Positions 846 through 35,824 of a DNA stretch of 35,886 nt are shown here, piece after piece (the first letter of the stretch is position 1; each line of letters begins with the position of its first letter). The DNA lies in IMG/VR virus record IMGVR_UViG_3300031578_000172, positions 1 through 35,886 of that record. One strand, 5' to 3'. Origin of the DNA: a virus. Made by a program: the position numbers and the translations under genes. The notes below the pieces were generated by a model. The model worked only from the letters and a program-made list of their open reading frames with translations. It was not told where the DNA came from and ran no database searches.

Positions 846-1105
846 TATGCCTCCTCAAAGGCCAGAAACCAGTCGGCGGCTTCGGCCTGCGCTTCCGTCA
901 GCAGCGCGTCCCGTTCGGCTTGGGTGAAGAACTCCTTGTCGTCTTCACTGTTGACGACAAGTGCCTCTTGCGCCGTCAGCGGGTGCGTGATCCACCCATG
1001 CCAGTAGTGCGTCACGTCCCCTGGCTGCAGCCCTGTGGCGCGCTGCTGCGCCTCCAGGCAGCTGCGGTCGGCGGCGCGTTGTCCGGTGAGTGGTAGATAT
1101 TCCAC
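845..1105 (-). CDS. Small hypothetical protein, tail-chaperone-sized (86 aa)
   Basis: Acidic C-terminus rich in Ala, Glu and Gln. I chose the GTG at 1105, which overlaps the stop of the lectin-like gene by one base and has a G-rich ribosome site 8 bases upstream. A longer frame from GTG at 1114 is possible, but that codon sits inside the G-run that would be the ribosome site. Size and position, immediately after a tail-fibre-like protein, recall small tail-fibre assembly proteins, but no sequence motif confirms that. The next gene starts within its stop codon. Confidence 0.65.
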   Translation of the reverse strand: MEYLPLTGQRAADRSCLEAQQRATGLQPGDVTHYWHGWITHPLTAQEALVVNSEDDKEFFTQAERDALLTEAQAEAADWFLAFEEA

Positions 1106-1968
1106 TAGTAGCACCCCCAGTAGCTGTTCATCGCGTTCTGCATCGCCGCCACTCGCTGCGCATCGCTGAGCGACGGATCACAAATCACAACGCTGACAAT
1201 ATCGCCATCCCACTCGGCTCCGGCAAGGTTGCTTGCTCCAATCCTCAACCCTTTGGCGTTTTGCGCGCCCGCATCGCCACTAGCCTCGCTCGTAGCATTG
1301 ATCCAGAACTGACTAGATACGCCATTGAACAGCATCGCCCAAACGTTCCAATTGCTATCGCTGGAACTTCCAACCAAGTACGCGCCCGCATAGAGAGCCC
1401 ACCCATCTGGTGTGGGGGCGTTATATTGGAACATCAGCATGCGGTTGCCATCAATTCCATCACATAGGGCATAGAGCGCGCCATCATTGACCGCCACCGC
1501 ATCCAGGGCACCTATGGCAAAAACGGTAAATGGCTGACTCAGTTGCCCACCAGTAGTGTATGTGCCCGCAAGTGCATGATTCGTCCCGTCGAACCGCATC
1601 CCCGCGTGCCCGTTTCGCGCGTTCGCCACGTAGAGCGGCTGGTTAGCTGCCACGGCCTGCGTCACGTCGTCGCTTGCCGGTGCCTGGTCGTAGACGGTGA
1701 CGACATAGGATGCCCCACCTGCCCACGCTGTAATCGCTGCCACGTTCAGGTCGCCGTTGGCGAGATAGGTGAAGTTAGCCTCCGCGTTGTCGCTGGCACG
1801 CCGCAGGCGCACCAAGTTGCCGGTGTAAGATGTCAGCACCCGGCGCGCCGGTTCGTAGATGTGAACAATGTTCGGAATACCGTCATAAGCAGGTGCGAAG
1901 CCGCCCGGTGCGCCGGCGCGCATGGACAGTGGCATGAAGCCCGCCCCCGGGAAGCCAGCCCCTGCCAT
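1105..1968 (-). CDS. Lectin-like virion protein (arabinofuranosidase B catalytic/LamG-type fold)
   Basis: Residues about 38-95 carry the pattern YEPARRVLTSYTG, VRLRRASDNAEANF and VVTVYDQ. I recognise this arrangement from the alpha-L-arabinofuranosidase B catalytic family (PF09206) as it occurs in many phage tail proteins. The rest (FTVFAIGALDA, MRFDGTNHAL, IGASNLAGAEWDGDIVSVVI) is typical of a concanavalin-like beta sandwich. The first 30 residues are Gly/Ala/Pro rich and flexible. In phages such proteins usually bind surface glycans at the tail tip or on the head; hydrolytic activity is not established. It abuts the upstream virion gene without a gap and overlaps the following gene's start. 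Confidence 0.72.
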   Translation of the reverse strand: MAGAGFPGAGFMPLSMRAGAPGGFAPAYDGIPNIVHIYEPARRVLTSYTGNLVRLRRASDNAEANFTYLANGDLNVAAITAWAGGASYVVTVYDQAPASDDVTQAVAANQPLYVANARNGHAGMRFDGTNHALAGTYTTGGQLSQPFTVFAIGALDAVAVNDGALYALCDGIDGNRMLMFQYNAPTPDGWALYAGAYLVGSSSDSNWNVWAMLFNGVSSQFWINATSEASGDAGAQNAKGLRIGASNLAGAEWDGDIVSVVICDPSLSDAQRVAAMQNAMNSYWGCY

Positions 1969-7684: not shown

Positions 7685-10648
7685 CTATTCCAGGATCCGA
7701 TCATACGTCTTCCCGCACTGCACGCAGCGCACCCAGTTCCCGTGCCCCTCGTAGAACTCGGCCGATGGTCCCCCGCAGAATGGGCACGTCCGGTCGATGA
7801 CCTGCGGCACGTGCGACTCATCCAGCTCGGTCGGGAACTCCTCGTCCTCGGGCGGCGAGGTCGTGTCCGGCTGCTCCAGGTCGTCCGGCTCCTCTTCCTT
7901 CTCCGCCCTGGCCAGCTTGAACGCCTCCGGGCTGATGATGTCCATCACCTCGTCCGCGCCGACCGCCTGCAGGACGGTCTGGAGCATGTGAATGTTGACG
8001 GCGTCCATGACCTCCTGCGGGATCTCGCCCATCGCGTTCATGTTCACCAGGAAGTCGCGGTAGAACGTGCCGATCGCGCCGCTCAGACTTTCCAGGTCGG
8101 CCTGCACCAGCTTGTCGGTGGACACCTGGCCGTTGTAGGTCTCGAACCGCATCTTGCCGAACTGCTCCGCGAACTTGAGGACGACCTTGAGCATGACGCG
8201 GAAGTGGCTGCTCCAGAACTTGCGGTAGCGGGAGAACTGGAACTCAAGGGGCCGCTCCATCGAAGTATTGCCAGCGATGAGCGGATAACCGTTGCGTCGC
8301 GTAATAAACATCGTGTTGGGCAAGGCTTCAAAGCACCATACTTTGCCAGAGTATTGCACTGCCTTAACGTTGTTTCGTCTGGCAAGGCTGAACTTCCATC
8401 GGTCGCTCCTGTGGAGGATCCAGCATGCCGCGCTCGTCTCGAAATCCGGATGCCCGTTCTCAGGTCGGTTGACGGCTATCGTACCCCATTCGCCCAAGTT
8501 CAGGAGAAGCGCCTGTAGCCCATCGATCAGCTCCTTGGATGTGGAAGTGAAGAAGCCTTTGTAGTGCTCATGTTCCTCCGAGTGGCCGTCGCCAGCCCAA
8601 AGTGCGTCAACAAGGATTCTGGTTTGCTCTCGATTCATGTCATAGGCAAACCCAGGCAGTCGTTTGCTCTTTGCACCCTTGCCACAGTTCTTTTCAAGCC
8701 AGTCATAAAGCGCCTTGTCATTCGTGCGCCACCGTATGGTCCGCCCTTCATCTTTGATGCCACGATTGAACTGGAAGGGAAGTCTGTCAAGCAAAGCCTC
8801 AATTCGCTCCACATCTGGACTGTCTACGTTTTGGCAGATGCCAACAACATGGTTATATCCGGTCCCATTCAGCCATCCTTCCGATAGCCACCAGCCAAGA
8901 AACTCCAGCCAGTCATCCATCGGAAAGGCGCGGGTCCCCAGTCTGCTCTTTTCCTGCCCTTGCCCGACAGATGGCAGAATGAAGGCCTCAATTACTGGAC
9001 GCGCTTCGCATAATGCCCTGGCCGGAAGAGCGAAACGGGAAGGAAGAGAATCCGCTTGGATCACCTCAAACGCCGTCTTGGCCCACTTCCTGCTCACGTT
9101 GTTCTCGTTCAGCGCCAGCATCCGATGGTTCGGCGTTACCAGGGCGTCGACGCTGCGTCCCTCAAACTGGATCATCGGCCCGTCATAGTCATACACATGC
9201 AGCTTCTGCGGCCACATGTACTCTATCTGCTGGAGGCCCTGGTTGTATGTTGCGATCATGTTGTGGCCCACGTCCCGCCAGCCTCGCCAACCCTTCTCGG
9301 TCAGCACTTCCGTGTCATCCGAGTAACACGCGGTTGCAAGCCGATAAGCGTCACCCTTGCCCGCGTAGTGGGGGAACAGCCCGTAGGCCAGAATCGGCAT
9401 CCAGGCGAACATCTCCTCGTCCGTCTTGGCGTCGTCCGCGCCGGTCCGCATGGGAAGATCCTCATAGTCAGTCGCCCTGTTGTGGAGGAACGTCGACCCG
9501 GCGGCCGCCGCCGGGTTGGTCTCCTGGTAGTTAGTTGCGGAGAGGTGAGAGGCGATCTGGTTGGCCACCGATTTGACGTTCCTCGACCCGCCGGCCATGC
9601 GCAGGCGCCGCACGTACATGGCCTTGGCCGCCGACACAGACAGCCGATTCTGCATGTACTGCTTGTGCGCCCGGTCCCACGCCGCGCCGGTAGTGCTCAG
9701 CGGCCACCCCCACAGGCTCGCCCGGTCCTTGGCGTTGTAGGCGATGTGCTGCGCGACGGCGACGGTCCCCGGCTGGCCCAGAAGCCCGTTGGCACGCATC
9801 TTGTCCGTGCGCTGGTCGTCCTTGACCCCGACGTACTCGGCCAGGGTCTTGCCGTCCTTGTACGTTTCGTCGAGCTTGCCCGAGAAGTACGCCTGCCAGT
9901 CGGGATAGTACCACGTCTGGGCCTTCGCGCCCAGGCTGAACTCGCGCTTGTAGAACAGCGGCTGCCACTTGTTTTCGGGGTGGGTGACAACGGACTTGAC
10001 CTCGTCCACGTCGAGCTCCGCGACCGTGGTCTCCCCGTCCGACGTGGACGCGTAATAGGCCAGGATCACGTTCCCGTCGCGCAGCACGTCCTCGGACAGG
10101 CAGTAGATGCTGGCCTCGCCCAGCAGGCGAGCGTTCCGGTCGGCGGACCAGAACTCCTGCCACACGCCGAGCTCCTTGACACGGTCCTGATACGTACGCT
10201 GCGCCTGCTCGCCCAAGCGTTCGCCGACTTCCTCCGGCGGCTGCGCCTTCTCGTCGTCCGGCACGATCTCCAGGCCCTCACCGAAGCCGTAGGACGTCCA
10301 CAGCGAAACGGCCCACTGGTAGAGGACGGAATACCGCCACAGGCGGCGGGACTCCTGGACCGCGAGCTGCCACTCCCGCCCGGCGTCGCCTTCCCGGTAA
10401 GACGTGAGGGATCCGATCTGCTCGTATTGCAGCTGGTTGACGAGGTCCCACAAGTAGGCGCTGTCGTACTCCCCGAGCTGGCGCAGCAGTTCATCCGGCT
10501 GGAGCTGGTAGGGACCGTCCAGGTAGGCGCCCCACATGTGTCGCACGCTGGCCGTGATTTCCTCGAGCTGGCGCCGCCGCCCTCCCCCGTCGATCAGGTC
10601 CGCGAACCGCTCGCGCAAGTTCGCCAGTACGCCATGTTGTTCGGTCAT
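7685..10648 (-). CDS. Portal protein interrupted by an in-frame intein
   Basis: 987 residues. Residues 1-440 and 795-987 are the portal exteins and 441-794 an intein; spliced length would be 633, large but plausible for a portal. Extein features include a long N-terminal region with QEFWSADRNARLLGEASIYC, then the conserved patch GDAYRLATA joined to TSMERPLEFQFSRYRKFW, where the intein sits. The C-terminus adds an acidic linker (residues 915-945) and a zinc ribbon, CPFC at 955 and CVQC at 975. The portal forms the dodecameric DNA channel at one capsid vertex and docks the terminase, encoded upstream in the same direction. The start overlaps the preceding stop (ATGA) and has an aaggga ribosome site. 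Confidence 0.88.
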   Translation of the reverse strand: MTEQHGVLANLRERFADLIDGGGRRRQLEEITASVRHMWGAYLDGPYQLQPDELLRQLGEYDSAYLWDLVNQLQYEQIGSLTSYREGDAGREWQLAVQESRRLWRYSVLYQWAVSLWTSYGFGEGLEIVPDDEKAQPPEEVGERLGEQAQRTYQDRVKELGVWQEFWSADRNARLLGEASIYCLSEDVLRDGNVILAYYASTSDGETTVAELDVDEVKSVVTHPENKWQPLFYKREFSLGAKAQTWYYPDWQAYFSGKLDETYKDGKTLAEYVGVKDDQRTDKMRANGLLGQPGTVAVAQHIAYNAKDRASLWGWPLSTTGAAWDRAHKQYMQNRLSVSAAKAMYVRRLRMAGGSRNVKSVANQIASHLSATNYQETNPAAAAGSTFLHNRATDYEDLPMRTGADDAKTDEEMFAWMPILAYGLFPHYAGKGDAYRLATACYSDDTEVLTEKGWRGWRDVGHNMIATYNQGLQQIEYMWPQKLHVYDYDGPMIQFEGRSVDALVTPNHRMLALNENNVSRKWAKTAFEVIQADSLPSRFALPARALCEARPVIEAFILPSVGQGQEKSRLGTRAFPMDDWLEFLGWWLSEGWLNGTGYNHVVGICQNVDSPDVERIEALLDRLPFQFNRGIKDEGRTIRWRTNDKALYDWLEKNCGKGAKSKRLPGFAYDMNREQTRILVDALWAGDGHSEEHEHYKGFFTSTSKELIDGLQALLLNLGEWGTIAVNRPENGHPDFETSAACWILHRSDRWKFSLARRNNVKAVQYSGKVWCFEALPNTMFITRRNGYPLIAGNTSMERPLEFQFSRYRKFWSSHFRVMLKVVLKFAEQFGKMRFETYNGQVSTDKLVQADLESLSGAIGTFYRDFLVNMNAMGEIPQEVMDAVNIHMLQTVLQAVGADEVMDIISPEAFKLARAEKEEEPDDLEQPDTTSPPEDEEFPTELDESHVPQVIDRTCPFCGGPSAEFYEGHGNWVRCVQCGKTYDRILE
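8267..9328 (-). mobile_element. Intein with LAGLIDADG-type homing endonuclease domain inside the portal gene
   Basis: 354 residues from Cys441 to Asn794 of the portal ORF. Block A is CYSDDTEVLTEKGW, block B contains VTPNHRM, endonuclease blocks C and E are EFLGWWLSEG and LVDALWAGDG, block F is GKVWCFEALPNTMF, and block G is YPLIAGN followed by extein Thr795. The residue before the terminal Asn is Gly instead of the usual His, which could slow or alter splicing. The DNA is visibly less GC-rich than both exteins, as expected for a mobile insertion. It interrupts the conserved ATA/TSMERP patch of the portal. Second acidic residues in both LAGLIDADG-like helices (E590, D687) are retained, so endonuclease activity is possible. 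Confidence 0.9.
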
Positions 10649-14744: not shown

Positions 14745-15182
14745 GTGAACCCCGAATGCCCGACTACGCCGGAGCGGTCGCGGATCATGGCGGCCATCCC
14801 GTCGAGGGACACGAAGCCCGAGGTGACGCTGAGGCGCGCGTGCTGGCGCATGGGCCTGCGATACCGCAAGCACCGCCGGGACCTGCCCGGCACGCCCGAC
14901 TTCGCGTTCGCGTCCGCCAGGGTCGCCGTGTTCGTGGACGGCGACTTCTGGCATGGGCGGGCGTTCTTCGGGGAAGGAAAGTGCCCCGCGAACAACCGGG
15001 AGTATTGGGCCGCCAAGTTCCTGCGGAACCGCGAGCGGGACCTCACGGCCGACGGGGCGCTGCGCGCGATGGGCTGGCTGCCGCTGCGGGTCTGGGAGTC
15101 GGACATATCAGCGCGCCTCCCCGCCTGCGCCCGCCTGGTCCGCGTGGCCGTCCGCCTCCGCGAGCGTCGCCGCGACGCATAG
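14745..15182 (+). CDS. vsr: Very short patch repair (Vsr)-like endonuclease
   Basis: 145 residues, normal for Vsr. ERSRIMAAIPSRDTKPEV, LRYRKHRRDLPGTPDFAF and VAVFVDGDFWHG are the family hallmarks, with D52 and H70 as candidate catalytic residues. Vsr nicks next to T in T:G mismatches that arise by deamination of 5-methylcytosine. The cysteines that bind structural zinc in E. coli Vsr are replaced here: DFWHGR instead of CFWHGC, and WESD instead of WEC. I recall other DFWHG members of the family, so this is probably a zinc-free branch. It starts at GTG 14745 and overlaps the convergent cytosine methyltransferase by 75 bases at the 3' ends, a natural functional pair. Confidence 0.85.
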   Translation: MNPECPTTPERSRIMAAIPSRDTKPEVTLRRACWRMGLRYRKHRRDLPGTPDFAFASARVAVFVDGDFWHGRAFFGEGKCPANNREYWAAKFLRNRERDLTADGALRAMGWLPLRVWESDISARLPACARLVRVAVRLRERRRDA

Positions 15183-16436
15183 GGCGACCGCCTCCATCAT
15201 CAGCGGCGGGACGGCGTTGCCGACCTGCCGCCACCCCGACGTGTACCCGCCCGCGAGCCTGAACTGGTCCGGGAACGACTGGATGCGCTTCGCCTCCGCG
15301 ACCGTCAGCGGGCGCTTTTCCGCCCAGTGGACCACCGTCGCGAACCCGTGCCTCCCCTGCATGGCCGGCAGCGTCATGGACGGCCTGCCGGGGTGCGGCT
15401 TGACGCAGCTGTTCTGCCCCCTGCCTAGCACGTCCCCCGCGTTGCCGCCCGGCGGGACGTCCCCCCATGCCGCGCCGTACCTGTCCCCGAGCGCGGGCGT
15501 CCCTATGTAGCCTTCGCGAATGCCAATTGCGGGCATGGGGCCGTCCGCCGGCTTGAGCCGCATCGGTGCCGCGCCGCTGGAAACGTGCAATGCCTTGCCG
15601 TCCCTGCCTTGATTAGCTATCCACAGCGTCGGCGCCCTCGTTGCGAGCGCCGCGGGCAAAGGAACGTCAACATCCCATTCTGTCCCCTTCCACCATCCGC
15701 CGCCGTGCGGGACAATCTTCCGCTTCCCTTCGCCGAACAAGTCCCCGATCGCCTCCAGAACGGTCAGCGGCCTGCCGACGGTCGGGCGCGGGTGCCGAGG
15801 GCGGGCGCCGAGGCCTTCCCGGACGCCGACGAACACCAGCCGCTCCCGGCTCTGCGGGACCCCGAACCACATGGCGTTCAGCCGCGCGCAGCGAACGTCG
15901 TACCCCGCCGCCTTCAGCTTGCGCATGCAGTCCGCGAAAACGAGCTTCATCTTGCCCTTGACCATGCCCCAGACGTTCTCCATCACAAACGCGCGGGGCC
16001 GCACCCCCTCCAACAGGCGGGCGAACTCGTTGTACAGCTGGTTCCGCATGTCGCCCAGTTCGCGCTTGCCCGCGGTCGAGAACCCCTGGCATGGTGGGGA
16101 CCCGTCCAGCACGTCGAGCTCACCGGGGCTGGCGCCCGCCGCCTCCATGAGTTCCCCCGCGGACAACTCCCGTATGTCCCCGCCCAGAACAGGCACGCCA
16201 GGGAAGTTGAGGCCGAACGACGCGCGCGCATCGGCGTCCCATTCGGACGCGGCGAGCTCGCGGAACCCGGCCATCGAGTAGCCCAGCGACGACCCGCCGC
16301 AGCCCGCGAACGTCGAGGCGACGGTCGGTGCGCCCGCCCGCCTCGGGGCCAGGTGCCTCGCCCATGCCGCGTCGAGCGCGTCCCGGTAGCCGCTCACTTG
16401 GGCCACCTGTGCCCGCATTTCGGGCACTCGACCCAT
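15108..16436 (-). CDS. C5-cytosine DNA methyltransferase
   Basis: 442 residues with the ordered motifs of the family: I, TFAGCGGSSLG (42-52); IV, DGSPPCQGFS with catalytic C116; VI, MENV with E153; VIII, QSRERL (195-200); and X, GNAVPP (406-411). The target recognition region lies between about 230 and 375, and its specificity cannot be read from sequence. It methylates cytosine in a short site, probably protecting phage DNA from restriction; the convergent Vsr gene repairs deamination damage. No restriction endonuclease partner is seen. It is second in a leftward two-gene unit and overlaps the upstream ParB-like gene by 43 bases if ATG 16436 is used; ATG 16418 is an alternative. Confidence 0.93.
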   Translation of the reverse strand: MGRVPEMRAQVAQVSGYRDALDAAWARHLAPRRAGAPTVASTFAGCGGSSLGYSMAGFRELAASEWDADARASFGLNFPGVPVLGGDIRELSAGELMEAAGASPGELDVLDGSPPCQGFSTAGKRELGDMRNQLYNEFARLLEGVRPRAFVMENVWGMVKGKMKLVFADCMRKLKAAGYDVRCARLNAMWFGVPQSRERLVFVGVREGLGARPRHPRPTVGRPLTVLEAIGDLFGEGKRKIVPHGGGWWKGTEWDVDVPLPAALATRAPTLWIANQGRDGKALHVSSGAAPMRLKPADGPMPAIGIREGYIGTPALGDRYGAAWGDVPPGGNAGDVLGRGQNSCVKPHPGRPSMTLPAMQGRHGFATVVHWAEKRPLTVAEAKRIQSFPDQFRLAGGYTSGWRQVGNAVPPLMMEAVALCVAATLAEADGHADQAGAGGEAR

Positions 16437-18296: not shown

Positions 18297-19109
18297 ATGA
18301 AGCTGTCGGCACGGGCAGCGGAGGCGCTTCAAGAAGTAAAGGAAAGGCTGGTCAGCGGCGACGTGGGCGAGCTGGTGAGGATGGCAATCATCGCACGGCA
18401 CCCGGACGACAAGATGCCGTCAAGCGAGTGGAGCTTCAACAACCGCCTGCTCGTCCTGTTCCAGACAATGCTGATGGGCAAGCTGACGATGGATTGTCGC
18501 GGGTATAGGCAATGGCAGGAGACCGGGAGACAAGTCCAGAAGGGTTCCAAGGCAGTGTACATCCTGGTCCCCATCGTCCGTTACGAAAAGGACGAGGTTG
18601 GCGAGATCGAGATGGATGAGCACGGGAACAAGAAGATCAGTTGGCTGTCATTCAAGGCCGTATCAGTGTTCCCAGATTGGGAAACCAAAGGCGACGGCTT
18701 GCCCAAGTTCGACTACACGCCCGCGAAACCGCCGCCCTTGGCAGGCATCGCGGAACGGTTCGGGATCGCCGTCGAGTATGTGCCAGAGATGGTCGGTGCA
18801 TACGGAAACACGACGGTCAACGGCAAGGTGATCGCGCTCGGTTCCCACGAGCCACGGGTATTCTTCCACGAACTTGGCCACGCGGTCCACGCCAGGATTG
18901 CGGGCAACCTCAAGGGCGGGCAAGACCCCGAGCAGGAAGCAGCGGCAGAGTTCACGGCGGCGGTGCTGGGAGCGATGTACGGGTACGACTACACTGGCAA
19001 CGCCAGGGACTACATCGCCGGGTACAACGGGGACGTGGAAAAGGCCGTGTCGGGCGTGCTGGGAACGGTAGAGAAGATCCTCAGCGCGATAGAGGCGGAG
19101 GAGGTCTAA
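18297..19109 (+). CDS. ardC: ArdC-like antirestriction protein with metallopeptidase domain
   Basis: 270 residues with two domains. The N-terminal part (about 1-125) has SEWSFNNRLLVLFQ, DCRGYRQWQETGRQVQKGSK and AVYILVPI, the ssDNA-binding ArdC N-terminal pattern. The C-terminal part has VFFHELGHAVHA (188-199), a zinc HExxH site, with EQEAAAEFTAAVL supplying the third ligand, as in ImmA/IrrE-like and ArdC peptidases. ArdC proteins protect incoming DNA from restriction enzymes and bind single-stranded DNA. It follows early genes behind P2 and fits with the methyltransferase/Vsr pair as a counter-defence set. A ribosome site aggagga is 8 bases upstream of the start. Confidence 0.85.
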   Translation: MKLSARAAEALQEVKERLVSGDVGELVRMAIIARHPDDKMPSSEWSFNNRLLVLFQTMLMGKLTMDCRGYRQWQETGRQVQKGSKAVYILVPIVRYEKDEVGEIEMDEHGNKKISWLSFKAVSVFPDWETKGDGLPKFDYTPAKPPPLAGIAERFGIAVEYVPEMVGAYGNTTVNGKVIALGSHEPRVFFHELGHAVHARIAGNLKGGQDPEQEAAAEFTAAVLGAMYGYDYTGNARDYIAGYNGDVEKAVSGVLGTVEKILSAIEAEEV

Positions 19110-32283: not shown

Positions 32284-32448
32284 GTGCAAATCGGAAAGCT
32301 GACTATACACGGCCCCTACCTCAAGATGTTCATCTACGGCTTCACAGGTGCGGGGAAGACGCACTTTGCCGGTACAGCGCTGGATATGGTTGGGAGCTGG
32401 GTAGGGGATCTAGCCCACGACATGATCACTGAAAAGAGGACCAAATGA
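32284..32448 (+). pseudogene. Truncated P-loop ATPase ORF, Sak4/RecA-like start (54 aa)
   Basis: GTG 32284 opens LTIHGPYLKMFIYGFTGAGK then THFAGTALDM. The strand plus Walker A (GFTGAGKT) and following FAGTA match the N-terminus of phage Sak4-type single-strand annealing ATPases. These are usually well over 200 residues, with a Walker B that is missing here. After about 15 further residues the frame ends in DMITEKRTK and its stop overlaps the initiator-like gene (ATGA). It looks like an internal deletion that kept start, Walker A and translational coupling. A hairpin gtatagt/actatac (32279-32309) covers the start. Confidence 0.55.
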
Positions 32449-33497
32449 GCATCAAGGTCATGACCAAAGTCTGGGACCAGTCAAAACAGAAAGGCAGCGC
32501 ACTCCTGCTGCTGCTCGCAATCTCGGACCACGCCGCCGACGATGGGTATTGCTGGCCGGGGATTAAGACGCTGGCGAGCAAGATCCGTATGTCGGAGCGC
32601 AGCGTGATGCGCCTAGTCAAGTCCATGGAGGAAGACGACGAGCTGTACGTCGTCCGGGGCAACGCCAACAACCGCTACGTCGTGACGGTCGGGATGACGA
32701 AAGACGACCTGCACCGCATTCTCCAGGCACGAGGCCAGCCGATACCATGTGACAACTTGTCACCTGACAAGATGACACGTGACAACGGTGACGGGGCAGG
32801 TGACACATGTGTCACTTCGGAAGTGACACAACCATGTCACCCTAATCTTCATGATCCATCACTTAACCATCAAGATCGCGCCTCCGCGCGACCGACAACA
32901 AACGAACCAAAAGCTACTACGCTGCCGGTCTTCGAGTGGGAAATGTCGGACGACGACATCCACGTGATCGAGTGTCCGCAGTGCGAAGGCCAGGTGGACG
33001 TGTGGACGGAGCTTTCCGCGTCCGCGGCCCAATGTCCCCATTGCGGCTTGCCCCTCCAGATCAAGGACAGCCATGGGAAAGTCACGCATCGTCCTCCTCA
33101 GGCCGCCCGGCATCGGACGCGTGCGTCGCCATGGCTGGTCGCCGTCGAGGCGTTCTGCGAGTACGCCGGGCTGGAGTGGACCAAGGTGTCAGGCGTGCAG
33201 AAGGGGCAGTGGGCACGCTCGATCGCGGAAGTCGCGGGCGAAGGCGCGGACCCTGGGGAGGTGGCCGCAGCGATCAGGGCGATGGAGATATACGACGTGG
33301 CGAACCTGAAGTCGCCCTACCAGGCGCGGTTCAAGGAGCCGCTGGTCATCGCGCTGGCGCGGAGTGAAGGGTCCGACCTGGAGACCGTGCCGCTGGAGGA
33401 GCTCAGGGCCCGGCTCGCCGGCGGGGAGCTGCGCATGGACGACCTGGATGCGGGGGAGCAGGCGGTGGTCCTGGCGCGTCTGGGGGCGCTGCCGTGA
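32445..33497 (+). CDS. Replication initiator-like wHTH protein with internal iteron array
   Basis: 350 residues. The N-terminal 95 residues (VWDQSKQKGSALLLLLAISD, YCWPGIKTLASKIRMSERSV and MRLVKSMEEDDELYVVRG) form a winged helix of the kind found in phage replication proteins such as lambda O/DnaD-like factors. Residues 100-135 are a linker whose DNA carries the repeat array at 32749-32840. A four-cysteine zinc ribbon (ECPQCEGQVDVW, QCPHCGLPL) follows, then a helical C-terminal domain that could load the helicase encoded downstream. The start overlaps the truncated ATPase stop. Initiator function is inferred from domain order, repeats and helicase neighbour. Confidence 0.72.
   Translation: MSIKVMTKVWDQSKQKGSALLLLLAISDHAADDGYCWPGIKTLASKIRMSERSVMRLVKSMEEDDELYVVRGNANNRYVVTVGMTKDDLHRILQARGQPIPCDNLSPDKMTRDNGDGAGDTCVTSEVTQPCHPNLHDPSLNHQDRASARPTTNEPKATTLPVFEWEMSDDDIHVIECPQCEGQVDVWTELSASAAQCPHCGLPLQIKDSHGKVTHRPPQAARHRTRASPWLVAVEAFCEYAGLEWTKVSGVQKGQWARSIAEVAGEGADPGEVAAAIRAMEIYDVANLKSPYQARFKEPLVIALARSEGSDLETVPLEELRARLAGGELRMDDLDAGEQAVVLARLGALP
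32749..32840. repeat. Iteron-like array, candidate replication origin
   Basis: About nine copies of the half-site GTGACA/TGTCAC or close variants in 92 bases. Several are paired as palindromes: GTGACAACTTGTCAC (32749-32763), GTGACACATGTGTCAC (32800-32815) and GTGACA...TGTCAC (32823-32840). Between them are direct copies at 32765, 32773, 32779 and 32788. The array is followed by an AT-richer stretch (32841-32876). Position inside the interdomain linker of an initiator-like gene parallels the lambda origin within gene O. Origin activity is inferred. Confidence 0.72.
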
Positions 33498-34237
33498 GCG
33501 AGATGATCTCCTTCGGTGCCGGGGTGAACTCGATCGCCATGACTATCATGCTCGTCAACGACGGCTGGCGTGGGCCGATTGTCTGGGCCGACACGGGCGG
33601 GGAGTGGCCAGAGACGCTGTGCTATATGAGAACCTTCGAGGAGCAATGGCTGAGGCCGAGGGGGCTGGAGATCACGGGGCTGTCGCCTGCCACCCACGCC
33701 GAACTGTACGACGACAAGCGGCTGGGCGGCCTGGCCGACACGCTGGAAGAATACTGCCTGATGCGCGGCATCATCCCCATTCTGGCGGTGCGTTGGTGTT
33801 CAGTGCAGTTCAAACGCAACCCGCTGGAGAACTGGCGGGAGGCACACGGGTTGGAGCGCACGTGTCTGGGCATGAGCGCCAGCGAACCGCGACGCATCCG
33901 AGAGGATCCAAGTATACGCTATCCCTTATGGGAAGAGGGTATCACGCGTGGTGAATGTCGGCGCATCATCGCTGAGGCGGGCCTAGAACAGCCCATCAAG
34001 TCGGGCTGTTTCTTCTGCCCAGGCCAGCGCCTCGACAACTGGCGGCGACTGTACTATGAGCACCGCGACCTCTACGATCGCGCCGTGGCACTGGAGGACA
34101 ATGCCAGCGAGCGCAACCAAAAGTGGGCGACGCTTGATCCGCATGGTATCAGCCTGCGCGAGCATGCCGCACGACGGTGGGAGGGGCAGATGACGATGGA
34201 TTTGACCCAGTGGCTGCCGTGCCTGTGCAGCCTGTGA
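33494..34237 (+). CDS. PAPS reductase-family (PP-loop) protein (247 aa)
   Basis: MISFGAGVNSIAM is a PP-loop (SFG.GVNS) for ATP pyrophosphate binding, ADTGGEWPET the second conserved block, RWCSVQFKRNP the third, and GCFFCPGQ a cysteine pair near the C-terminus. Phage members of this adenylation family sit near replication genes and resemble DndC-like or PAPS reductase proteins; sulfur transfer or DNA modification has been proposed, but substrate is unknown. GTG 33494 overlaps the initiator-like stop (GTGA). It could contribute to the modification and anti-restriction capacity seen at 14-19 kb. Confidence 0.8.
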   Translation: MSEMISFGAGVNSIAMTIMLVNDGWRGPIVWADTGGEWPETLCYMRTFEEQWLRPRGLEITGLSPATHAELYDDKRLGGLADTLEEYCLMRGIIPILAVRWCSVQFKRNPLENWREAHGLERTCLGMSASEPRRIREDPSIRYPLWEEGITRGECRRIIAEAGLEQPIKSGCFFCPGQRLDNWRRLYYEHRDLYDRAVALEDNASERNQKWATLDPHGISLREHAARRWEGQMTMDLTQWLPCLCSL

Positions 34238-34247
34238 GGAGGACCCG

Positions 34248-34412
34248 ATGACTGTTAGGCAACGAGCTGGATTGGTACTCCTGTTGCTAGGACTAGCCAT
34301 GATGATCGTCAACGCCGGACTCGACGGCGTAGAGACCGCGCGCATTATCCGAATAGTTCTTTACTTTCTGGTTGGTGCTGTCATGTTCGTAGCACGGGAT
34401 CGGAAGGAATGA
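34248..34412 (+). CDS. Small two-helix membrane protein (54 aa)
   Basis: MTVRQRAGLVLLLLGLAMMI, a short loop (NAGLDGVETARIIR) and IVLYFLVGAVMFVARDRKE: two membrane helices with basic ends. A gaggagga site precedes ATG 34248, and the stop overlaps the helicase start. Function unknown; it is held in the replication operon by translational coupling. Confidence 0.62.
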   Translation: MTVRQRAGLVLLLLGLAMMIVNAGLDGVETARIIRIVLYFLVGAVMFVARDRKE

Positions 34413-35824
34413 TGGCAACTGACCCCGCCGGCAAGCTGGTCAGCCTCGACGCGGAACGCGCGGTCCTGGGCGCGTGCCTGATCGACCCCGACGCCGTCGC
34501 CAAGGCCGCCGAGGAGCTGGAGGCGTCCGACTTCCACGACGAGGGCCACCGGGCCCTGTTCGCTGCCATGGTCAGCCTGGACGACCAGGGGCAGGCGCCC
34601 GACCAGGTCGTCCTCCGCGACGAGATGGGGGCCGATTTCGGCAAGCTCGGCTGCAAGGAGGGCGGAAGGCGGGAGGCATACCTGACCTGGCTCGTCAACC
34701 GCACGCCGACAGCGATGCACGCCCAGCGCTATGCCTCCATCGTCCGCCGCCTGTCGACGCTTCGCCGCCTGGTGGGCTACGGGGCGCGCGTGGCGCAGGA
34801 GGCGTACCGCGACCGGGACGACCTGGACGACGTGTTCGCCCGGGCGCGGCGCTGGCTGGACGCGATCGAGCCGCGTTCCGGCGAGGACGAGGCGGTGCTG
34901 TACTGGGAGGAGAGCCTTCGGGCGTTCTTCGACGGGCAGCTGGCGCGGTCGGTCGAGGCCGACGAGCGCGAGGAGGGGCTGGTCCGGTGGGTCACGTTCC
35001 CCTGGGCCGGAATGCGGCGCTACCTGTCGCACCTGCGCGAGGGCACGCTGGCCATCGTCGCCGCGGAGCCGGGCGTGGGCAAGACTGCGTTTCTGGAGGG
35101 GATGGCGGAGCACAACGCGCGGCAGGGCCTGCAGGTCGTGTTCTTTCACCTGGAGCTTTCGCACCAGATCATGATCGACCGCCGCACGGCGCGGCACTCT
35201 GGCGTCCCGGTCCAGGCCCTCGAGGAGGGAGGCATGCCCGACGAGGCGCAGCGGGCCCAGGACGCGCTCAGGGCGTGGCCGGGCGGAATCCATTACGTGC
35301 ACTGCCCACGCTGGTCCGCGCCGCGGATCGTGCGTCGGGCGGCGGCGCTGAGGCAGCGGGGCCTGTGCGACCTGGCGATCGTCGACTACCTGCAGAAGCT
35401 GTCGCTGTCCTTCGAGAACGGAGCCAACCGGGCGCAGGCGCTCGGCCATGCGCTGGAGGTGCTCAAGAGCTGCAGGGAGCAGCTGGGGATCCCGTTCGTG
35501 GTCGCGTCCCAGTTCTCGCGCGGCTCGCGGGACAGGAAGGTGAAGGTGTCCGACGACATCCGCGACACGGGCGAGGCCGAGGACAAGGCGAACATGATCG
35601 CCCTCCTGGACCGCCCGAGGTCGGCAAAGAACGTCGTGCAGGGCGGCAGGACGGTGCTGAGGGCGGGCGACCGCGTGCCTACGGCGTCGTGCCGCATGGA
35701 CAAGAACACGCTGGGCGCGGTGGGCAGCTTCTCGCTGGTGTTCGACGGGGCGCGGTTCTCGTTCGCGGACTCGCCGAGCGAGGCGACGCTGGCGACGCTG
35801 GAGCCGCCGCCGCTCAACTTCTGA
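34409..35824 (+). CDS. dnaB: Replicative DNA helicase, DnaB family
   Basis: 471 residues. The N-terminal helical domain (DAERAVLGACLIDPDAV, FHDEGHRALFAAM) is the DnaB N-domain that binds loader or primase. The RecA-like core has Walker A AAEPGVGKT (218-226), HLELSHQIM after strand 2, Walker B LAIVDYLQK with D326, VVASQFSRG, and DIRDTGEAEDKANMIALLDR for the later arginine-finger region. It unwinds the phage fork as a hexamer; the initiator-like protein upstream may load it. Starts at ATG 34409, overlapping the membrane gene stop. No primase is visible; it may lie beyond the right edge. Confidence 0.92.
   Translation: MMATDPAGKLVSLDAERAVLGACLIDPDAVAKAAEELEASDFHDEGHRALFAAMVSLDDQGQAPDQVVLRDEMGADFGKLGCKEGGRREAYLTWLVNRTPTAMHAQRYASIVRRLSTLRRLVGYGARVAQEAYRDRDDLDDVFARARRWLDAIEPRSGEDEAVLYWEESLRAFFDGQLARSVEADEREEGLVRWVTFPWAGMRRYLSHLREGTLAIVAAEPGVGKTAFLEGMAEHNARQGLQVVFFHLELSHQIMIDRRTARHSGVPVQALEEGGMPDEAQRAQDALRAWPGGIHYVHCPRWSAPRIVRRAAALRQRGLCDLAIVDYLQKLSLSFENGANRAQALGHALEVLKSCREQLGIPFVVASQFSRGSRDRKVKVSDDIRDTGEAEDKANMIALLDRPRSAKNVVQGGRTVLRAGDRVPTASCRMDKNTLGAVGSFSLVFDGARFSFADSPSEATLATLEPPPLNF

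Follow-up and report, generated by a model that had tools for sequence, protein, structure and literature searches.

Positions 32749–32877 of the window (the whole stretch of viral DNA analysed, a record of 35,886 bases) very probably constitute an iteron origin of replication with an adjacent unwinding element, self-encoded within the initiator gene. The first-pass annotation had placed a candidate origin inside an initiator-like gene, and this placement is supported by the profile matches of the initiator, a scan based on DNA only and the conserved repeats of relatives, all of them computational. Computation established the array itself and the family of its gene, the conservation and position of the box, the constraint at the DNA level, the covariation of the box with Arg56, the instability of the adjoining DNA and a second repeat element. 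The features of the array are the following:

32749–32840, no strand assigned: iteron array of paired GTGACA-N3/4/6-TGTCAC boxes, the presumed initiator binding sites, based on motif counts and relatives
32749–32763, no strand assigned: palindromic box 1, GTGACA-N3-TGTCAC, with the gap that is favoured among relatives
32800–32815, no strand assigned: palindromic box GTGACACATGTGTCAC (GTGACA-N4-TGTCAC)
32823–32840, no strand assigned: palindromic box GTGACA-N6-TGTCAC, with a gap that is also enriched among relatives

The coordinates previously given for the array (32749–32840) were exact on rechecking, and the three palindromic arrangements described earlier were recovered as inverted pairs whose half-sites are separated by 3, 4, and 6 nt. 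The array itself is real, and the earlier count of about nine half-sites was revised to about ten, seven of which are exact (GTGACA at 32749, 32779, 32800, and 32823; TGTCAC at 32758, 32810, and 32835) and three of which carry one mismatch (CTGACA at 32765, ATGACA at about 32772, and GTGACG at 32788). A perfect 11-bp inverted repeat (32808–32830) also lies within the array. Five exact hexamers were found in the remaining 35.8 kb of the record, no two of them within 100 nt of each other. Recoding of the same peptide using the codons of the virus (20,000 trials) yielded a mean of 0.79 and a maximum of 5 sites vs. the seven observed, and the array is therefore due neither to the amino acids nor to codon bias.

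Full-length initiator and DnaB sequences retrieved no close relatives as queries against IMG/VR; the first 47 residues of the initiator, which end before the recognition helix, were the only query that worked and were used for the protein search. The matches and the relatives from an earlier tblastn search were reduced at 75% identity to 143 initiators, which were not chosen on repeat architecture; one protein-found set was nearly all SfV-like and redundant and served mainly as a non-Arg56 control. Repeats that were significant against the synonymous null were identified within 88 of these 143 non-redundant genes, including that of the window, and consisted of many different sequences. The family is characterized by repeats in the part of the gene that separates the winged helix from the C-terminal part, a feature which the window initiator shares. 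For 38 GTGACA-type genes, the window's excluded, facing half-sites were separated by gaps of 3, 4, and 6 nt in 53, 26, and 24 cases, respectively, compared with about 5 for most of the remaining gaps; half-sites in tandem recurred at 21–23 bp, i.e., about two helical turns. Two codon phases are used by GTGACA and all three by TGTCAC, the sole missing phase being the one that would make an in-frame TGA stop. The first-pass annotation had named the conservation of repeats vs. protein in relatives as a check, and the relatives were found to keep the repeats, in every stop-free frame, and not the amino acids. The comparison thus points to conservation of the DNA at the array and not of the encoded peptide.

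Such repeats could also arise secondarily if the linker required a repeated peptide, and short peptide repeats do occur in some linkers (GVTxxx, SPDxx). The sites are nevertheless present on both strands and in every stop-free frame, the synonymous null is exceeded, and the linker peptides, which are predicted to be disordered, are wholly different between relatives. We rejected this explanation, which the sequence data already contradict, on the basis of frame usage and give it next to no chance of being correct. In the two closest N-terminal relatives of the window initiator (L163 and L173, 77–79%) the array is degenerate, with a single exact site per gene and several copies of CTGACA, which perhaps represents a shift of specificity in progress.

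The gene in which the array lies, and the helicase gene located downstream of it, were characterized using profile searches and structure prediction:

32445–33497, plus strand: initiator gene (350 aa), based on HTH_36, the PHROG 391 and PHROG 8540 profiles and an AlphaFold model
32595–32633, plus strand: codons of the recognition helix (residues 51–63, including Arg52 and Arg56), based on the AlphaFold helix and the covariation of Arg56
34409–35824, plus strand: DnaB-like replicative helicase, the factor likely to be loaded at the origin (DnaB_C, E = 7e-33; DnaB N-terminal domain, E = 2e-21; phrog_19)

The initiator matched the Pfam model HTH_36 (E = 7e-10, 39 bits, cut-off 25) and the PHROG families annotated as O-like replication initiation (PHROG 391, E = 1e-17; PHROG 8540, E = 6e-15). 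In the AlphaFold model, which was built with 30 aligned sequences, residues 1–95 form a winged helix (pLDDT 93–98), a linker of about residues 100–171 is predicted to be disordered (pLDDT below 50 for residues 109–171, which include the greater part of what the array encodes), and residues 231–345 form a helical C-terminal domain. The array had been said to encode the linker between the winged helix and a zinc ribbon; the model supports the winged helix and the linker, and the putative ribbon (residues 174–207) consists of four cysteines in two CxxC pairs near 177–200 with sub-threshold Pfam matches only. The ribbon is absent from the nearest relatives of the initiator, including one with the same array (L148), and we accordingly do not retain a zinc-ribbon initiator as part of the scheme. 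A Foldseek search using the model returned winged helices as the nearest solved folds, all of them weak matches (E > 0.003): the top match was 4pql, a DNA-binding protein's N-terminal domain, and a Rep–DNA complex (5kbj) and an initiator (4pt7) came close after. The best sequence-profile match among structures was a replication initiation protein (2vn2, E = 0.0013). The DnaD_N profile scored 11.9 bits, i.e., below its cut-off of 27, and the initiator was not assigned to the DnaD helicase loaders. The DnaB gene expected downstream is present, separated from the initiator gene by a PAPS-reductase-like gene (33494–34237, plus strand) and a short gap; in SfV and Psychrobacter phage Y8A (L003, L009), a gene of the same type is likewise located close to the initiator. 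No counterpart of the P-type loader, which belongs to the helicase-loader complex that lambda O recruits, was identified among the subset of window genes that was scanned.

To search for the boxes with no protein input, 2.9 million viral contigs of IMG/VR were scanned for two GTGACA-N3/4-TGTCAC boxes within 30 nt. Fifty-two contigs matched, for 34 of which the covering ORF could be named; a plausible covering ORF was not seen for about 18. The covering ORFs belonged to HTH_36 in 30 of the 34 cases and matched "replication initiation protein" in 29, the array being located near residues 90–135 in most of them. Using a profile constructed from the protein-found relatives only, 27 of the DNA-found arrays were placed inside a matching ORF (i-E < 0.01). 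Arginine is present at both positions 52 and 56 in 32 of the 34 DNA-found initiators, and the linker peptides over their arrays are unrelated (GDTVSP, VTDCHP, DKMSP, and others). The same GTGACA boxes occur at the same place in many unrelated viruses. The open-access literature yielded nothing relevant on GTGACA paired with TGTCAC, and neither a link of this box to residue 56 nor its being common to unrelated viruses was found described.

The prediction concerning Arg56 came from reading the helices and was fixed before further genomes and viruses, the held-out sets, were gathered. When a GTGACA array was defined as three or more exact sites per gene, arrays were present in 38 of 81 Arg56 genes vs. 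1 of 62 others (p = 1e-10, 143 initiators), and in the held-out sets alone in 19 of 42 vs. 1 of 28 (p = 1e-4). The association also held when stratified within clusters of 50% identity (p = 0.006); counted by such clusters, the held-out data gave no significant association (p = 0.39). Residue 56 did not stand out when mutual information was calculated at the 50%-cluster level across every column of the alignment, and the claim about the helix thus rests on the targeted test. Since 43 of the 81 Arg56 genes lack three exact GTGACA sites, Arg56 is not sufficient for a GTGACA array, and the notion that Arg56 alone sets the box type is weakened by these genes and by one initiator that breaks the rule. 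This only clear exception, from an Acidimicrobiaceae MAG (L263), has Ser56 (helix RTIRS) and eight GTGACA sites; its helix may be shifted by one residue. Other residues at position 56 accompany other repeats (Gln56 with GGTGAA; Lys or Gly with CCGAA or GGAA repeats), although these groups are small. Three RNTIN-type initiators without Arg56 (L282, L288, L293) have CGACAC repeats, a related but different box, and are useful for working out the recognition code.

The DNA that follows the array contains the second group of features:

32838–32877, no strand assigned: least stable 40 bp of 31.7–35.9 kb and candidate unwinding element (nearest-neighbour stability, 99.6th percentile of the window)
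32854–32861, plus strand: copy 1 of AACC[AG]TCA, ATCCATCA, with one mismatch
32865–32872, plus strand: copy 2 of AACC[AG]TCA, AACCATCA, exact, 11 nt after copy 1

The AT-richer DNA noted earlier downstream of the array thus coincides with the stability minimum of 31.7–35.9 kb, within which both AACC[AG]TCA copies of the window fall. Among relatives, the GC content of the 60 nt after the array was under the gene mean in 37 of 39 genes, and synonymous G+C, which is 0.75 at the iterons, dropped over the next ten or so codons to values down to 0.14 because of the DNA repeat AACC[AG]TCA. Its extended form GAACC[AG][TA][CT] was present in 101 of the 143 initiator genes vs. 14 expected after codon shuffling, in all three frames, and the core AACC[AG]TCA had 190 copies on the coding strand of this gene set vs. 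4 on the opposite strand. The copies are mostly spaced by 10–12 nt and follow the last iteron at a median distance of 4 nt; their occurrence is independent of residue 56. A scan of IMG/VR using DNA only and requiring three AACC[AG]TCA copies retrieved 120 contigs, in 91 of which the copies were inside HTH_36-type genes and in 3 near one; the remaining matches mostly fell at contig ends or in simple tandem repeats. Only 3 of the 34 initiators of the DNA-found set, which is more diverse, have the element, other AT-rich sequence or repeats often being there instead. The element is therefore a feature of the protein-found clade and not of all HTH_36 genes, and its universality among the latter was dropped as a proposal. 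Descriptions of AACC[AG]TCA, or of AACCATCA or AACCGTCA with replication origins, were not found in the open-access literature.

This context bears on two other functions of the repeats. Palindromic half-sites fit a dimeric repressor and repression is common among winged-helix proteins, so that the initiator or another phage protein could bind the repeats as operators that control transcription and not the start of replication. Against this, the sites are 300–400 nt into the coding sequence and not at a promoter, the window has no other cluster, the sites end at the start of the unstable AT-rich segment, which has a conserved repeat of its own, and the family was annotated as replication initiation in 29 of the 34 blind matches; we therefore regard operators as improbable. 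The array could also bind the initiator for copy control or incompatibility, as a handcuffing or titration locus, with unwinding and start located elsewhere, given that plasmid iterons act in control too and that an array and a start site are separable. The array nonetheless directly adjoins the stability minimum of the region and the phased AACC[AG]TCA repeats, and the origins of lambda (PMC7466680) and pSK41 (PMC5703833) sit at such in-gene arrays, which leaves a control locus with a slender chance, slightly below that of operators. An origin at the array itself remains the preferred reading.

Skew analysis had been proposed as a further check. The record of this virus is a linear and perhaps incomplete sequence, and its cumulative skew minimum, which lies elsewhere (16.8 kb), coincides with the switch of the coding strand; skew is therefore uninformative here and was rejected as origin evidence for the window, its minimum being confounded by gene direction. 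In a circular relative, the complete phage-plasmid paPv8 (40,135 bp), the detrended skew minimum (32,693) lies near the array, at 0.6 kb from it (33,291). Because RepL and a further Rep gene are also present in paPv8, and gene direction changes near the minimum, this result is supportive only and not proof.

Binding by the initiator, unwinding, helicase loading and origin activity are what we infer for the window, and they could proceed as follows. Winged-helix dimers would bind the GTGACA-N3/4-TGTCAC boxes via the recognition helix (residues 51–63), Arg56 presumably being needed for this type of box. Several bound dimers would then come together on the array and open the segment 32838–32877, which is unstable and contains AACC[AG]TCA, after which the C-terminal part of the initiator would assist in positioning the DnaB encoded by the phage on the exposed strand. 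Since the disordered linker is encoded by the array, protein and origin would be inherited as one cassette and be able to change specificity together.

A wider proposition, to which we give a little less than even credence, is that a wide group of phage initiators has a two-part in-gene origin. The recognition helix would set the iterons, with Arg56 for GTGAC-type boxes and other residues for others, and the nearly invariant, strand-specific and helically phased AACC[AG]TCA beside them would function irrespective of the iteron type, e.g., as a single-strand signal for opening or helicase loading. If true, AACC[AG]TCA would be an undescribed origin element, accompanied by a natural recognition code. 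Origins are unmapped for most viruses known only from metagenomes, and if the origin reading is true those of many tailed phages could be read from sequence by moving from an HTH_36 gene to its linker repeats and from there to the AACC[AG]TCA repeats. The natural initiator–origin pairs with varied boxes would be a ready set for deriving residue-to-base reading rules and would also allow one to ask how specificity shifts when binding site and linker share DNA.

Other regions of the window were annotated in passing. A portal-like ORF of 987 aa (7685–10648, minus strand) has a middle part that matches thymidylate synthase and ribonucleotide reductase PHROGs, typical of intein-bearing proteins, and LAGLIDADG_3; judged by these matches, an intein that contains a homing endonuclease probably interrupts a portal gene here. 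A C5-cytosine DNA methylase gene (15108–16436, minus strand) and an ArdC-N antirestriction gene (18297–19109, plus strand) are located near the strand switch and possibly form an anti-restriction set. The virion structural protein encoded at 1105–1968 (minus strand) matches an arabinofuranosidase-type catalytic domain and is possibly a sugar-binding or sugar-degrading tail part.

Among known systems, lambda O binds as a dimer to iterons within its own gene, adjoined by an AT-rich tract (PMC7466680), and the succession of in-gene iterons and AT-rich tract is also seen in the window. The lambda O arrangement invoked by the first-pass annotation therefore holds as a layout that works alike and not as membership of the lambda O family: lambda O belongs to PF04492 (Phage_rep_O, 123 bits) and matches neither HTH_36 nor the HMM of the window family, and PF04492 gave no match to the window initiator at E ≤ 1. 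As far as can be judged from sequence profiles, the initiator would be a functional counterpart of lambda O and not one of its family. The repeat had been described as different from that of lambda and palindromic; its sequence does differ, the lambda iterons being 18-bp units unlike the GTGACA boxes, but the contrast was overstated since lambda O is likewise dimeric on in-gene iterons. Unlike the window's initiator gene, the lambda O gene has no AACC[AG]TCA on its coding strand, and the virus of the window differs from lambda in encoding its own DnaB.

The O-like/HTH_36 initiators of SfV, mEp460 and Vibrio, Psychrobacter, and Halomonas phages have a homologous N-terminal domain and in-gene repeats, and several of this group have GTGACA too, whereas the SfV-type initiators have other repeats and no Arg56. 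A published origin mapping was not found for GTGACA-type initiators. The nearest tested precedent is provided by the staphylococcal pSK41 and pPR9 Rep proteins. The pSK41 Rep (RepA_N) is bound to Rep boxes in the centre of rep by its N-terminal winged helix, and the linker encoded there is dispensable; the pPR9 Rep is chimeric, with an HTH_36 (pfam13730) N-terminus, and its module supports autonomous replication (PMC5703833). The window initiator resembles pPR9 Rep in its HTH_36 N-terminus and RepA_N proteins in having candidate origin boxes inside its gene, to which the N-terminal domain would bind as the covariation suggests, and its model has weak Foldseek similarity (E 0.003–0.03) to an initiator N-terminal domain (4pql) and to the Rep–DNA complex 5kbj; it differs from RepA_N in box sequence and C-terminal domain, and PF06970 (RepA_N) gave no match to it at E ≤ 1. 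Given the in-gene origins of lambda and pSK41 and the HTH_36 replicon of pPR9, the principle on which the origin of the window would operate is already known.
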